64,000 nt of DNA from Thiomicrorhabdus immobilis (lineage in GTDB: Bacteria; Pseudomonadota; Gammaproteobacteria; Thiomicrospirales; Thiomicrospiraceae), in NCBI RefSeq assembly GCF_021654855.1, contig NZ_AP024202.1:1178001-1242000 (forward strand), given 5' to 3'. A program made the position numbers and the translations under genes. The notes under the pieces are model-generated. The model made no database searches. It had not been told where the DNA came from and saw only the letters and a list, made by a program, of their open reading frames with translations. Of the stretch, positions 3,388 to 63,746 are shown piece by piece. Within the stretch, counting starts at the first letter, position 1, and the number at the start of each line of letters is the position of its first letter.

Positions 3388-3774
3388 TTACTTGTTTGAA
3401 TTCAAATAATTATCTCTTATTTCATCAATCAGTTGTAGATAGACCTTTGGAAGCGGTCTTACCGATTGCAGATTGCTGGCTTCTACAAGGAGTAGCCAGT
3501 GAAACAGGTTTTGTTCACTCTCTTGTAGTAGTTGGTTGATTAATTCAACCTTTTCAATAGCTAAGGGCGGTTTTAAAGAATGAATATAACTTTGCAAAAG
3601 CAGTTCGGTCTCTAAATTTCCACGTTTGCAGAGGAATAAACTTTGTTTTTGCCAAATAATGAATTCTGAGGGGCTTTCTGGCGTTTCGATTGTGTGTCCT
3701 GCAGAATTTAACCAGGCCTGGTTAATTTGTTCAGGAGGATTACGGTGTGAATCATCTGTTTTGTGCATAGTCAT
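3388..3774 (-). CDS. sdhE: FAD assembly factor SdhE, N-terminally extended
   Basis: SdhE (YgfY/CptB family) promotes covalent attachment of FAD to SdhA. The protein carries the family's RGxxE motif ([11 protein letters not shown], near residue 52), then [14 protein letters not shown], matching the usual LL...D..L..WL pattern. It starts 2 bp after the sdhB stop, so it is the last gene of the sdh operon, which strongly supports the call. At 128 residues it is longer than typical SdhE (about 80-95); the extra is an N-terminal extension of about 40 residues. The first codons of that extension are uncertain: ATG at 3774 or 3768. A copy of the repeated palindrome ACCAGGCCTGGT encodes QAW inside the extension. 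Confidence 0.85.
3711..3722. repeat. Iterated palindrome ACCAGGCCTGGT, copy in sdhE
   Basis: An exact core copy, read as (N)QAW(L). Confidence 0.9.
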
Positions 3775-58999: not shown

Positions 59000-59044
59000 A
59001 TCACCTGTAAGGGTGGTATTTATTAGGCTAAATTCTTATATACT
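59000..59044 (+). promoter_or_regulatory. Dyad operator and -10 of the Gln/Gly-rich protein gene
   Basis: ATCACC-TGTAAG-GGTGGT (59000-59017) is an imperfect dyad. Its centre lies 30.5 bp upstream of the first base of a -10-like TATACT (59039-59044), i.e. about -42 from the expected start. The same arrangement stands before the exported protein gene at 60623. Confidence 0.65.
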
Positions 59045-59089
59045 ATAAATGTAAATAAATTACATATGTTCGATTTAAAGGAGAACAAC

Positions 59090-59470
59090 ATGAAAGTGGT
59101 TAATGGTCTAAAAACAGGTGTGGTTGGTTTGGCTTTATTATTCGCATTTGGTTCAGCGGCGTCGTTGGCTTATGCAGAGGATGCGGTTCAGTTGCAAACG
59201 CAACAGAATACTCAACTACAAACTCAACAACGAATGGGTCCGGCAGTTCCTCAGGGTGATGGTGTTCAGAAACAGGTTCAGAAAAAACACCTTTATCAGC
59301 ATCAAAATCAGTTTGAAAAGCAATTAGAAAAAGCTGAAAACGGTAAACGTGATGTGTCATCAGCTGCAGGTACAAATAATGGTCAGCGTCAAGCTAGCGG
59401 TGCTCAGGGTGGACAACGTCAAGGCTCTGGAAGTATGAATCGTTCTGGAGGCGGTGGCGGAAAACGTTAA
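59090..59470 (+). CDS. Small secreted Gln/Gly-rich protein
   Basis: A 126-residue protein with a Sec signal peptide ending AYA-ED. The mature part has a Gln/Thr-rich segment with repeats (QLQTQQ twice), a Lys/Gln-rich middle, and a Gly/Ser/Gln-rich tail ending SGGGGGKR. It is low-complexity and probably disordered; no cysteine. ATG 59090 has AAAGGAG upstream, a strong site. Its promoter shares a dyad with the exported sorting-substrate gene, so they are probably coregulated by the LuxR protein encoded between them. Function unknown. Confidence 0.8.
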   Translation: MKVVNGLKTGVVGLALLFAFGSAASLAYAEDAVQLQTQQNTQLQTQQRMGPAVPQGDGVQKQVQKKHLYQHQNQFEKQLEKAENGKRDVSSAAGTNNGQRQASGAQGGQRQGSGSMNRSGGGGGKR

Positions 59471-59527
59471 CTTGCCTAATCATCTTAAAATAGATGTGAT
59501 CCATTAAATTAAAGATGATTCAACATT

Positions 59528-59563
59528 AAGCCAGTCTAACCACAAGTTAGATTGGCTTTTTGT
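59528..59563. terminator. Terminator between the secreted-protein and luxR-type genes
   Basis: AAGCCAGTCTAAC pairs with GTTAGATTGGCTT (one G-U) around CACAA, with a T-run; it lies between convergent genes. Confidence 0.9.
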
Positions 59564-59585
59564 TTTGGAAGTTGATAACGAAGTT

Positions 59586-60365
59586 TTAGGAAAGTAATCC
59601 AGCATTTACTTTATTGGCGAGTTCTAATTTTGAATTAACTTCATATTTAGCATAGATATGCTTAACATGCGTTTTAACCGTGTTAACACTGATATGCATC
59701 TCTTTAGCGATATCACTATAAGATTTGGCGGCCAGCAGTTTTTTTAATATGTGTTTTTCTTTGGCGGTCAATAAAGGGATGTCATTATTGATCTGAATGC
59801 ATTTTCCCTGAAACATCCGGGTTTTCTCATCATGAAAAGGGCGGATAACCGTCTCTATCATTTTTTTTATTTTAGTCAGTTTTTCAATTTCGGGTTGGCT
59901 TGCTCCCAAGAAACCAAAAAATATGCAGCCAATAATTTGCTGTTCAAACGAAAAAAGAGGAAAAACGACCATATGATTAAAAGCGTGACTCTCTTCAAAA
60001 TGCTTGATTTTCTGTTTTGAAATAGAATCGATTAAAAGGTCTTCAATGGAATCTGTTACAGTGTATTCTTCTCCTGCAGTGAAGGCTTTAGCATTTTTCT
60101 TTTTAAGGGTGTCCAGAACCAGTGTATGGCTTTGTAGGTGATAGCGTTTTAACAATCCGTGAAAGATATTGGATTTCTCGAGAATGAATTCAAGTTGCAG
60201 GCTGTCTTTTTGGAGGATACATAATCCGCCCATGTCCGCGCCAGACTCTTCGAATATATAATGTGATTCATTACGAAAAATAGCCTCAATACTGTGGCCG
60301 GCCATTAGGCAGGATTGAATATTGATGGTTTGTTGTAGCATGTCAATATCGGTAACATCTTGCAT
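59586..60365 (-). CDS. LuxR-family transcriptional regulator with GAF-like sensor
   Basis: A 259-residue regulator. The C-terminal 60 residues are a LuxR/GerE helix-turn-helix (LTAKEKHILKKLLAAKSYSDIAKEMHISVNTVKTHVKHIY). The N-terminal 180 residues look GAF-like (MVVFPLFSFEQQIIGCIFFGFLG); acyl-homoserine-lactone-binding signatures are not evident. The start is ATG 60365 with AAAGGGC upstream; the frame continues open to 60449. It lies between the small secreted protein gene and the exported sorting-substrate gene, both carrying the same dyad, so it is their likely activator. Confidence 0.85.
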   Translation of the reverse strand: MQDVTDIDMLQQTINIQSCLMAGHSIEAIFRNESHYIFEESGADMGGLCILQKDSLQLEFILEKSNIFHGLLKRYHLQSHTLVLDTLKKKNAKAFTAGEEYTVTDSIEDLLIDSISKQKIKHFEESHAFNHMVVFPLFSFEQQIIGCIFFGFLGASQPEIEKLTKIKKMIETVIRPFHDEKTRMFQGKCIQINNDIPLLTAKEKHILKKLLAAKSYSDIAKEMHISVNTVKTHVKHIYAKYEVNSKLELANKVNAGLLS

Positions 60366-60484
60366 TTTTTGCCCTTTGCTGAGTGTGTGCTTATTCTGGA
60401 TGCGGAAAAGCTTCGCAGAAAAATAAATTGCCAAGTTGTTCTCAATCAAGTTTTGTTATAGTTGCCCATTAAATAAATACAATT

Positions 60485-60529
60485 ATCACCAAAAAGGGTG
60501 ATGAATACTATTACGTATCCATATATAGT
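60485..60529 (+). promoter_or_regulatory. Dyad operator and -10 of the sorting-substrate gene
   Basis: ATCACC-AAAAAG-GGTGAT (60485-60502) is a perfect dyad. Its centre is 30.5 bp upstream of a -10-like TATAGT (60524-60529), identical to the arrangement before the small secreted gene. It lies in the divergent spacer, so it could also control the luxR-type gene. Confidence 0.65.
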
Positions 60530-60622
60530 AAACATTATAGAAAAGTAAATATATTTATATATATATTTATACTTAAAAGATTTAAAAAATAAAAACAAAC
60601 CTTAGAGAGGTCAGAGGAAATT

Positions 60623-62149
60623 ATGAATTTGAATAAGATTTTTAAACGTAGTGCACTAAGTGCGGCACTTTTGGTTGTTAGTGTTCCAGTGTATTCTGGT
60701 CAGATTATCGGTGTTCAGCAAGGTTTGCCTAGTCCTATTTTAACTGGTGCTGATGAGTACAAAAATGGTTTTGGTGGTTGGGATTATGGCAATGTCAATG
60801 TAAGAATTGTTGATGCTGAAACTAAGCAAACAGATGTTGTAGGCAAGAGTTTTGATTCTATTACAGGTTCTTACACGGCAATGACTTACGGAGAGAGTTT
60901 TGTCAGTGAGGTTATGGATGGCCCAGCAGGGACTGTAATGGGTAGACTAACAGGTAAGGATTGGCCAGTTGGTGAGCCAGCAGGCGTCAGGGTTATTACA
61001 ACAGATGCCATTGAGGACCAAAGTAATGGGCGTCCTAATAGTTGTATTTTAAGTACTTCTTATCATAAGTTTTCGGAGGACTCAAATTATTCAGGTCCGA
61101 CTCCAGATGATGGGTATTTAGATTCTGCTAATCCCAACCCAACACTTTGCGACAGCCCTTTTCAGACTCATAAACGTTTCAAAGTAAGTGCATTACCAAC
61201 ATCAATCGATGATGCCGATGGTACAGTAAATAATGCGATTGATATTGTTTTTAACTTGGATACAGGTGCCACATCGACTGCTGAAACGGCACTGCGTCGT
61301 TATTCGGTATTGCAGAAATTAAACAACTATACGGGGTCAAGATTAGCGGGTTATAAGATTGAGCTAGGTTTTGGTGTAGGGAATAACTTTGCAAAAATTG
61401 ATACCACTAATACGACTTTAACAGATCAGCTACACCTTTCAGTAGGAGCAGGTGATGGTTCTGATTTTTGGTCATCAGGTGATTTAGCAACATTTTCAGC
61501 AGGTCTATTTGGTCCTGCAGATCCTCCAAAGCACCCTAATGACGGATTCTTTAGTAATGCTACGGCAAACTATCCTGTAACGTTAACAGATGCCGGTCTT
61601 CTTGAGTCATCTGGTGTGTTAGCTAGTAATTATACAAGCTTGTTTGGTGATTGGATCCCAAGTAATGTCGCTCCTAGCGGGGTCTTTTATGATGATGACA
61701 ATGACCCGACAACAGATGCTGTTCTGGTTGCTTTCTGGAATAATGGCCAATGGTTATATGGACAAGCCCAGAGTTTTGCTCCTGTGCCAGATGCAACACT
61801 TACACAATGGGCAGACAATAGTTTATATAGTGTAGGTGTCATTGAAGATTTATTGAACCTAGGTTTAAGTTATATGGTTGAAGTTGGTGATGTGAACACC
61901 ATTGTTACACAGAGTAGCTACAATAACTTTACCATTCGCATGATTCCTGTTGTTTCAACTGATACAACTGCAGTGACATGGGGTGATGCACCAACAGATT
62001 TAAGTGCTTATGCGAGTGCTACTGGTGGAACAACGACAACTTCTTCTGGTGGTTCAGCGAGCTTTGTGAGTCAGTATGGATTTGTTGCGCTATTGTTGGT
62101 TTTCCTAGGTTTAGGTGGCTGGATTGTTAGAAACAAAATGTCTAAATAA
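60623..62149 (+). CDS. Exported protein with C-terminal sorting-like tail
   Basis: A 508-residue protein with a Sec signal peptide (to about VYSG) and a large Asp/Asn/Gly/Thr-rich, mostly beta extracellular region. Only two Cys are seen in the mature part (NSCILSTSY and TLCDSPF). It ends with a Gly/Thr/Ser linker (ATGGTTTTSSGGSA), then SFVSQYGFVALLLVFLGLGGWIV and RNKMSK: short motif, hydrophobic helix, basic end, the layout of exosortase signals. The motif aligns in form with IPTLSxWG-CTERM but is not identical. An exosortase-like gene follows 131 bp later. GAGAGG precedes the ATG. Confidence 0.8.
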   Translation: MNLNKIFKRSALSAALLVVSVPVYSGQIIGVQQGLPSPILTGADEYKNGFGGWDYGNVNVRIVDAETKQTDVVGKSFDSITGSYTAMTYGESFVSEVMDGPAGTVMGRLTGKDWPVGEPAGVRVITTDAIEDQSNGRPNSCILSTSYHKFSEDSNYSGPTPDDGYLDSANPNPTLCDSPFQTHKRFKVSALPTSIDDADGTVNNAIDIVFNLDTGATSTAETALRRYSVLQKLNNYTGSRLAGYKIELGFGVGNNFAKIDTTNTTLTDQLHLSVGAGDGSDFWSSGDLATFSAGLFGPADPPKHPNDGFFSNATANYPVTLTDAGLLESSGVLASNYTSLFGDWIPSNVAPSGVFYDDDNDPTTDAVLVAFWNNGQWLYGQAQSFAPVPDATLTQWADNSLYSVGVIEDLLNLGLSYMVEVGDVNTIVTQSSYNNFTIRMIPVVSTDTTAVTWGDAPTDLSAYASATGGTTTTSSGGSASFVSQYGFVALLLVFLGLGGWIVRNKMSK

Positions 62150-62206
62150 TCGTGCGATAAGCAATTAAAAGCGTTGTTCAAGACGTTTTTAAGTCCACCT
62201 AATATG

Positions 62207-62248
62207 AAACCCTTACAAATTGTTATTACAGCTGTAAGGGTTTTTTTA
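62207..62248 (+). terminator. Terminator between substrate and exosortase genes
   Basis: A perfect 11-bp stem, AAACCCTTACA (62207-62217) with TGTAAGGGTTT (62233-62243), is followed by seven Ts. Readthrough would give low expression of the enzyme relative to its substrate. Confidence 0.9.
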
Positions 62249-62280
62249 TGCTTTTCTTATTAAAAAAGAGGTCTCTTTAA

Positions 62281-62925
62281 GTGTTGTGGTTTGTAGTTCG
62301 CTATGTTCTATGGTTAGTACTGCTATTCGCTCTGTTTTTTATTGAATCCATTTCTCCTCTTTATTTTGTGCAAACCTGGCAAACGGATTTAACCATTTAC
62401 CTCACCCATTTATGGATTGATGGTTTTGATATTCCCGTCAAGATGGTTGGAAACACCGTTTATTTGGACCATGGATTCAATATCTGGATTTTGGATGGCT
62501 GTAATGGTCTAGCCGCCTATTTACTGTTCGGTGTGGCGATATTAGCTTACCCAACCGTTTGGTTGAGTAGATTGATTTGGTTGCTTGAGGGGTATTTCTA
62601 TCTAGTTGTTATAAACTCGATACGAATTGATTTTGTAGTGTATTTAACCATGTTTGATGCGGACTACTTTTACTGTGCTCATGATTGTATTGGGCGTTTA
62701 TGTATGGTGGCAACGACCTTGTTATTGTTTATGTTGTTTACCTTCCGTGTGCAACTCAGTCGACAGGCTCGTAATCAATACGATCGCAGAAAGGGAGAGC
62801 GTGATAGAAGACATGCTCATGCCCATGAATGGCGCGAAGCTAAAGAGGAACGCAGGCATAATAAAGAACCAAGGCGTAAACAGCAAGATAGAAGGGAGAA
62901 ACCTCCTGAAAGGTTGAAGCTGTAA
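62281..62925 (+). CDS. Exosortase-like (XrtH-type) membrane transpeptidase
   Basis: A 214-residue inner-membrane protein with about five helices. The exosortase/archaeosortase triad is present: Cys74 in LDGCNGLAAYLL, Arg115 in INSIRIDF and His134 in CAHDCIGR. The short size and these contexts resemble exosortase H, which processes IPTLxxWG-CTERM proteins. Unusual is a highly charged C-terminal tail of about 55 residues (DRRKGERDRR, EERRHNKEPRRKQQDRREK), presumably cytoplasmic. The start is GTG 62281 with AGAGG upstream. It follows its presumed single substrate. Confidence 0.82.
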   Translation: MLWFVVRYVLWLVLLFALFFIESISPLYFVQTWQTDLTIYLTHLWIDGFDIPVKMVGNTVYLDHGFNIWILDGCNGLAAYLLFGVAILAYPTVWLSRLIWLLEGYFYLVVINSIRIDFVVYLTMFDADYFYCAHDCIGRLCMVATTLLLFMLFTFRVQLSRQARNQYDRRKGERDRRHAHAHEWREAKEERRHNKEPRRKQQDRREKPPERLKL

Positions 62926-63014: not shown

Positions 63015-63746
63015 ATGGCGGCAAATATTCATATCCAGAAAACCGATTTTTCCCTTCCTGTTATTCAACTATCGCAATGTGATGTTGCAGAATTAAAACA
63101 AGAGCTTGAGCAATTTGCATTAAGTGACTCTGATGAAAGCATTGCTGTACCTTGTATTCTCGCAATTGACAATGAGTTTACCGAGCCAACTTTTTTAGCC
63201 CAATCATTGGAGTGTTTTCGACAGCATGGTTTTTTACCTATTGGCCTTAAGACAGAGTTGGATGGCATTATCCAACAGGCTAAGTATGCTGGGCTGGCAG
63301 TGTTTAGTGAGAAATTGAATCAATTAGAACTGTTTGATGCCGTTTTGTTACAGCAGCAGGTTAAAACTCCGATTGCAGAACAGAATGTCAGTCCCAAACC
63401 GTCCGAGAAAAAAATGCCCGTCATTTTGCACCGTAGCATCACCAGTGGCGAACAAATCTACGCTGAACATAACGACTTGGTCGTTTTAGGTGATGTTGCC
63501 GTTGATGCTGAAGTGATTGCGGATGGAAATATCTACATTGGCGGAAGCCTGATGGGCAAAGCGTATGCTGGAAATTCCGGCTTAATGAATGTGGACGAAA
63601 TCAGTGTGCGAGCGACTTCATTTGAACCTCAGTTGATCAGTATTGCAGGTTTCTATCAATTGTATGAAGACATCCCAACTAAATACCTGGGCTTGGCTGT
63701 CAAAGTGAAGTTTGAAGCACAGCGATTCGAATACCGTTTAGAGTAG
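63015..63746 (+). CDS. minC: Septum site-determining protein MinC
   Basis: MinC inhibits FtsZ assembly away from midcell. The 243-residue protein has the N-terminal FtsZ-interacting domain (about 1-110), a linker (KTPIAEQNVSPKPSEKK), and the C-terminal beta-helix domain with SGEQIYAEHNDLVVLGDVAVDAEVIADGNIYIGGSLMGKAYAG and LISIAGFYQLYEDIP. A terminator follows directly, and minD/minE are not adjacent within the window, which is unusual. Confidence 0.95.
   Translation: MAANIHIQKTDFSLPVIQLSQCDVAELKQELEQFALSDSDESIAVPCILAIDNEFTEPTFLAQSLECFRQHGFLPIGLKTELDGIIQQAKYAGLAVFSEKLNQLELFDAVLLQQQVKTPIAEQNVSPKPSEKKMPVILHRSITSGEQIYAEHNDLVVLGDVAVDAEVIADGNIYIGGSLMGKAYAGNSGLMNVDEISVRATSFEPQLISIAGFYQLYEDIPTKYLGLAVKVKFEAQRFEYRLE

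Follow-up and report, generated by a model that had tools for sequence, protein, structure and literature searches.

A candidate LuxR-controlled surface-display module with an exosortase-family enzyme and two tail-bearing cargo proteins in Thiomicrorhabdus immobilis

The window analyzed here is a stretch of 64,000 nucleotides (nt) from Thiomicrorhabdus immobilis (contig NZ_AP024202.1, positions 1,178,001 to 1,242,000 of the forward strand). The genome holding it, designated G000, has a size of 2.54 Mb in one contig. Positions 59000 to 62925 of the window carry genes for a secreted Gln/Gly-rich protein, a LuxR-type regulator, a choice-of-anchor F exported protein (F) and an exosortase-family enzyme. 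With good confidence, short of certainty, we read this locus as a LuxR-controlled surface-display module, in which the exosortase serves F and also a distant second protein, choice-of-anchor O (O), having replaced the protease MrtJ cargo by cargo. We hold a wider statement with somewhat more belief than doubt: the exosortase and MrtJ, an unrelated glutamic CPBP protease, are interchangeable for F and O, the steps of the takeover are kept among the genomes, the tail alone decides, and there is one LuxR-type regulator with a box common with Campylobacterota.

An earlier note on this DNA had named the same four genes (Gln/Gly-rich, LuxR-type, 508-residue exported, exosortase-like), and all four were present as open reading frames (ORFs). 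The linker-motif-helix-basic tail that it described for the 508-residue protein was also found as claimed. The features of the locus are the following:

59000-59017, + strand: ATCACCTGTAAGGGTGGT, a palindromic box preceding the Gln/Gly-rich gene; TATACT follows at a distance of 21 nt
59090-59470, + strand: secreted Gln/Gly-rich low-complexity protein, 126 amino acids (aa) from the ATG at 59090; the ORF opens at 59066, and the start is either 59066 or 59090
59586-60449, - strand: LuxR-type regulator with a GerE helix-turn-helix (HTH) spanning residues 227-279; it probably starts at 60365 and is encoded divergently to the F gene
60485-60502, + strand: palindromic box ATCACCAAAAAGGGTGAT at the F promoter, the sole exact ATCACCN6GGTGAT in the genome
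60524-60529, + strand: putative -10 element TATAGT; the box precedes it by 21 nt, which would put the box center near -42.5
60623-62149, + strand: choice-of-anchor F exported protein, 508 aa, NF033657 match
62042-62062, + strand: SSGGSAS motif, the proposed recognition site, which the C-terminal hydrophobic helix follows
62063-62146, + strand: C-terminal hydrophobic helix and basic end RNKMSK of F
62210-62240, + strand: hairpin resembling a terminator, with a T run after it, in the gap between the F and enzyme genes
62281-62925, + strand: exosortase-family enzyme, 214 aa, GTG start, with Cys74, Arg115, His134 and a charged C-terminal extension

The F tail and the adjacent enzyme

We searched 76 genomes, of which 32 were from the genus Thiomicrorhabdus. 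At an E-value (E) of 0.001 the enzyme was present in 12 genomes, namely nine of the genus and three distant ones (G062 and G052, which have true XrtH exosortases, and G071, with an E of 1.3e-4). F was present in 9/76 genomes, and these were the same nine genus genomes that hold the enzyme. The F and enzyme genes were adjacent in each of the nine and in both Sulfuricurvum loci described below. The earlier view that substrate and enzyme are consecutive was thereby extended to 11 of 11 loci, although the two Sulfuricurvum loci were located through F. One outcome that the note had named as refuting, enzyme homologues unlinked to the exported protein, was thus not seen in this enzyme group. The whole module, with the Gln/Gly-rich protein, the divergent LuxR-type regulator, F and the enzyme, and then minC, was found in seven of the nine genomes. 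The contig of G014 begins just upstream of F, and in G018 F and the enzyme stand alone at another place, adjoining a choice-of-anchor O lipoprotein. A further class-wide sample of 369 genomes had F in five, G000 among them.

The window F matched NF033657 over residues 113-440 with 227.9 bits (cut-off 50) and gave no JDVT-CTERM match. The enzymes of the nine genomes form clade A (G000, G009, G030, G021 and G018) and clade B (G017, G014, G025 and G005). Pairwise identities of the enzymes correlated with those of the F tails (Spearman 0.82, permutation p 0.0002, n=9); the coefficients were -0.30 for enzyme versus F core and -0.28 for core versus tail. Mean identities within and between the clades were 64% and 41% for the enzyme, 62% and 40% for the tail, and 54% and 54% for the core. 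The best explanation of this pattern is that F cores were swapped between lineages and the tails stayed with their enzymes. Since the F tail and the enzyme gene adjoin, the correlation by itself is no proof of recognition.

GlyGly-CTERM tails have a motif that was published as "often SGGS" (PMC3237569), and SSGGSAS contains SGGS. The tail of F could on this ground be a GlyGly-CTERM signal cut by rhombosortase, the exosortase-like neighbor having another job, but we consider this highly improbable. Both kinds of tail have Gly-Gly and Ser; rhombosortase is a serine rhomboid protease, and TIGR03902 detected none in the 32 genus genomes, a negative result without a positive control, since the control genomes likewise held none over the cut-off. 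No GlyGly-CTERM match was obtained for the window F (E up to 1) or for O of G000, G030 and G009 (E up to 10). The F tails of clade B have no Gly pair and yet are found beside the same enzyme group. Dedicated single-target pairs of rhombosortase and GlyGly-CTERM protein, often neighbors, and families switching the tail along with the cognate enzyme were described in 2011 (PMC3237569), and the GlyGly-CTERM tail was shown to act independently of its passenger (PMC13393428).

The window enzyme reached 35.7 bits with the general exosortase/archaeosortase signature TIGR04178 (cut-off 23), and this cut-off was passed by eight of the nine genus enzymes. Cys74, Arg115 and His134 were invariant in all nine, were kept in a seven-row alignment taking in the two Sulfuricurvum enzymes, and aligned with the corresponding residues of the two true XrtH proteins. 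The triad named in the earlier note thus stood up, and its conservation suggests catalysis by Cys74 with Arg115 and His134. The structure model of the enzyme had a mean predicted local distance difference test score (pLDDT) of 90.1; it gave no match to the PDB at E 0.001 (Foldseek), and by sequence there was none at E 1.

XrtH (TIGR04177) was the best NCBIfam subfamily for the window enzyme, and the two have the superfamily, the small size and the conserved Cys/Arg/His in common. An XrtH-type exosortase acting on IPTL-CTERM-like tails is nevertheless a very remote alternative. The score of the window enzyme was 50 bits at a curated cut-off of 86, two clade B and two Sulfuricurvum enzymes had 31 to 45 bits, and the true XrtH proteins of G062 and G052 had 193 and 196.5 bits. 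The tails are different and show no IPTL-like motif. A kinship to XrtH beyond the general family, as suggested before, was not borne out. Among the named exosortase subfamilies that were matched, including XrtH and XrtX, the window enzyme was below every curated cut-off, and assignment to any of them was rejected.

A probable second cargo and a proposed exchange with MrtJ

O was present in 9/32 genus genomes, and again these were the nine with F and the enzyme. The O gene of G000 (G000:C1:2146441-2148621) lies 0.9 Mb from F, and its product has the C-terminal motif SSGGSAS as in F. In G000, G009, G030 and G021, the O tail consists of SSGG(G)SAS or STGGGSAS followed by hydrophobic residues and then basic ones at the terminus, and GGSAS was invariant across nine aligned clade A tails (five of F, four of O). 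The O protein of G000 gave no JDVT-CTERM match. In G018, G025, G017, G005 and G014, O has a JDVT-CTERM-like tail and a MrtJ relative directly downstream; the O tail of G014, the one scanned, passed the JDVT model. A genus-wide search found MrtJ over the cut-off in these five genomes and in G031, but in none of G000 (which had no match), G009, G030 and G021.

The F-tail profile A3 had one strong match in each of the nine genomes and an extra weak one, the O tail of G021 (E 0.001). The clade A tail profile A4 gave two strong tails each in G000, G009, G030 and G021 and one in G018; because A4 was built with O tails, their match is by construction. The best match in the remaining 27 genomes was the clade B F protein of G025 (1.6e-5). 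Informative in this search is that there was no third tail, and none in genomes without the enzyme. The check proposed in the earlier note, a search of the genome for other proteins with the same tail, led to O, and the picture of a self-contained locus with one apparent substrate had to be given up: partners sit elsewhere in the genome, and O bears the same tail motif.

A strictly dedicated pair of one enzyme and one substrate, with the likeness of the O tail due to coincidence or convergence, would fit five genomes, G018 and those of clade B, in all of which O retains the JDVT-like tail and MrtJ. It is at odds with G000, G009, G030 and G021, in which every O tail has GGSAS in common with the F tails and there is no MrtJ; G000 has two strong tails and not one target per genome. 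We regard such a pair as unlikely, though as the least unlikely of the alternatives, and prefer an exosortase that serves both F and O in these four genomes.

The same gene sets were found outside the genus. A contig scan of named genomes with the enzyme alone retrieved no relative, and the same scan with the F alignment retrieved F loci. Of 23 F loci from named genomes, four were from Thiomicrorhabdus, two from Sulfuricurvum, 13 had a JDVT-like tail with Gly-Cys, and four were other or cut (L045, L049, L053 and L054). Both Sulfuricurvum loci have a clade B-like F tail. JDVT-like tails on F occurred at loci of Sulfurovum, Vibrio and Hydrogenophaga, and a MrtJ relative was directly downstream of F in 10 of the 13 JDVT-like loci; of the other three, L040 ends directly after F, and L041 and L055 are taken up below. 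The JDVT model was passed by 5/5 tails scanned of these 13 loci, and the MrtJ model by 6/6 proteases scanned of the ten downstream of F. A LuxR relative was present at L037, L039, L040 and L041, O at L038 and L043, DUF2202-like genes at some loci, and a protein similar to the Gln/Gly-rich protein at the Sulfurovum locus L039 (E 4.5e-4). Since either exosortase or MrtJ follows F in similar gene sets, the enzyme slot is filled by either of two unrelated proteases. At L049 (7761-9839, Thiotrichaceae), one of the other F loci, the F tail is rich in Gly and free of Cys, and the 13 kb of DNA retrieved there contain no relative of the exosortase or of MrtJ.

By analogy to archaeosortase and myxosortase (PMC11980579), F would be exported by its signal peptide and then held in the inner membrane by the C-terminal helix. 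The enzyme may recognize the Ser/Gly motif just before the helix, SSGGSAS in this genome; Cys74 would attack near the motif with the assistance of Arg115 and His134, the helix would be removed, and the processed F would be handed to an anchor. Two cargos would be served in this way in T. immobilis, F beside the enzyme gene and O at a distance. The module seems to share its plan with one in which MrtJ handles JDVT-CTERM tails on F and O. The nature of the moiety that bacterial exosortases join to their substrates is not known to have been settled.

The MrtJ/JDVT-CTERM system (NF033192, NF033191) resembles the exosortase module in having the same cargos F and O, the enzyme directly after F, and a tail of motif, helix and basic end. 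The enzymes in contrast are unrelated, MrtJ being a glutamic intramembrane protease, and the JDVT tails seen here have a Cys after the Gly run, which the exosortase-side tails do not have. MrtJ and one JDVT-CTERM protein were reported as a two-gene neighborhood (PMC11980579). The takeover steps were read from three genomes: both enzymes are side by side in G014, where F is followed in turn by the exosortase, O with its JDVT tail and MrtJ; one cargo is switched in G018; both are switched and MrtJ is lost in G000. The exosortase would then have taken over F first in Thiomicrorhabdus, and on the branch toward T. immobilis it may also have taken over O, with loss of MrtJ. This would be a natural tail swap: related bacteria with small genomes have the same cargo with either an exosortase tail or a Cys-type one, and just one or two such substrates came to light in them. 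Within the literature searched, the exosortase group, which has no name, its SSGGSAS-type motif shared by two unlinked cargos, the replacement of MrtJ in steps and the shared LuxR box appear to be new, although Haft 2024 may overlap with these points.

A palindromic box and the candidate LuxR regulon

The regulator matched the GerE HTH with 47.7 bits at a Pfam gathering cut-off of 23.5, which placed it among the LuxR/NarL-type HTH regulators and confirmed the LuxR-type assignment made earlier. An autoinducer-binding domain was absent from its Pfam matches at E up to 1. Eight of the nine F promoters have a palindrome (A/T)TC(A/C)CC-N6-GG(G/T)GA(A/T), with a -10-like hexamer following at 21 or 22 nt, and no site reached that score when the promoter set was shuffled 100 times. 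The F promoter of G014 had no box in the 221 nt upstream of the assumed start. Boxes within one mismatch numbered two in the window versus 0.10 expected, and 31 in the genome versus five for the control.

We inspected 15 of the 31 genome sites. Five had a -10-like hexamer at 20-22 nt, and these preceded the genes for F, the Gln/Gly-rich protein, the O lipoprotein and a DUF2202 protein, and L073. The last was set aside as a copy of another iterated palindrome. Site-by-site inspection thus placed every other box with a -10 element before the same gene set. The box at G000:C1:1397498, with a weak -10 element (TAAACT, 4 of 6) at 22 nt, is upstream of the gene for a secreted DUF2202-type protein. 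This protein ends with GGKGRR, resembling the end of the Gln/Gly-rich protein, and across 169 residues it is 58% identical to the DUF2202 protein encoded next to O. A box score of 11 or 12 of 12 was found for the O lipoprotein in four of six copies examined, this genome included, and before O in four of nine, G000 not among them.

Outside the genus, 16 of the 19 non-Thiomicrorhabdus F loci were covered; the F promoter had the box at 3/4 loci that also contain a linked LuxR relative and at 0/12 lacking one. Given this pattern, the best reading is that the LuxR-type regulator may act as an activator at the box. A lux box in LuxR-type promoters is usually centered near -42.5 (PMC4471428), as would be the palindrome before F. 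The box in contrast is an 18-bp element of other sequence. The genes for F, the Gln/Gly-rich protein, the O lipoprotein and the DUF2202 protein are likely to form a LuxR regulon in this genome. The proposed co-regulation of the Gln/Gly-rich partner agrees with its promoter in G000, which has the same box as that of the substrate.

Several observations speak against parts of our reading. A box score of 11 or 12 of 12 before the Gln/Gly-rich gene was found in only two of seven copies examined, G000 included. The O promoter box scored 9 of 12 in G000 and 10 of 12 in G009, and there was none in G030, G021 and G014. Locus L041 has a LuxR relative and no box; in G018 the reverse holds, the box being present and the 14 kb inspected being free of LuxR relatives. 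L041 and L055, both with JDVT-like tails, had no MrtJ in the DNA fetched, and MrtJ was above the cut-off in a Thiomicrorhabdus genome without F or O (G031:C5:316202-316474). Profile A3 gave the O tail of G009 weakly (E 4.6) and missed the O tails of G000 and G030. The correlation between tail and enzyme could stem from recombination inside the F gene carrying both; the unlinked O tail answers this objection, but it probably represents one evolutionary event in four related genomes. No biochemistry was found for the enzyme. The G021 enzyme fell short of E 0.001 with TIGR04178, and Pfam PF09721 (Exosortase_EpsH) had no match in the genome or for the enzyme protein; among 14 control genomes PF09721 matched in one and TIGR04178 in three. 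Finally, eight of the 32 genus genomes did not reach the standard of 90% completeness together with at most 5% contamination, which makes single absences soft.

Further features of the proteins and the locus

The hairpin with the T run between F and the enzyme was found in G000, G009, G030, G021 and G014, with arm sequences that vary yet pair, and was not found in G018, G017, G025 and G005. The consensus scanner missed the window hairpin, as its loop exceeds the scanner limit of 8. Such a hairpin would yield much substrate and little enzyme.

The model of the F core was of moderate quality (mean pLDDT 67.3, with the first 50 residues and residues 119-184 below 50) and depicts a beta-rich domain for which no solved structure matched confidently. 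With Z scores not above 4.6, too weak for naming a function, the best solved structures were mostly beta-sandwich pilins and adhesins, interspersed with capsids and pore-forming proteins. For lipoprotein O the BNR/Asp-box match was below the cut-off. Our guess for the role of the cargo is adhesion or binding at the cell surface. Relatives of the Gln/Gly-rich protein have the Gly-rich end in common, with Lys-Arg or Lys-His as the last residues.

The Arg/His/Glu-rich charged C-terminal extension of the enzyme (62750-62922) was observed for the enzymes of G000, G009, G030 and G021 alone; these are also the four genomes whose O bears an exosortase-type tail. A different protein with the exosortase signature, in frames of about 300 aa, occurred in six genus genomes outside the nine (G006:C131:2625, G028:C89:13070, G012:C155:11920, G027:C1:95803, G007:C69:6797 and G029:C2:17571).

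A ferritin-like DUF2202 protein was encoded near O in eight of the nine genomes (not within the 13 kb of G018) and near F in some other genera. The genes L121 4581-5225 and L074 1692-2513 are of this kind; the G000 copy beside O was assigned with 198 bits and the others by BLAST.

The minC gene that directly follows the module occupies window positions 63015-63746. It keeps this place in the seven genomes although the opposite flank varies, with thi genes in some genomes and pgsA- and GGDEF-like genes in others, as read from the sequence.

The 12-bp palindrome ACCAGGCCTGGT is highly iterated. It is in no clade B locus (L027-L030) and occurs in the loci of G009, G030, G021 and G018. The window has 10 copies versus 0.01 expected, at positions 3711, 4621, 6818, 8375, 28515, 28894, 35801, 39568, 45093 and 57782.

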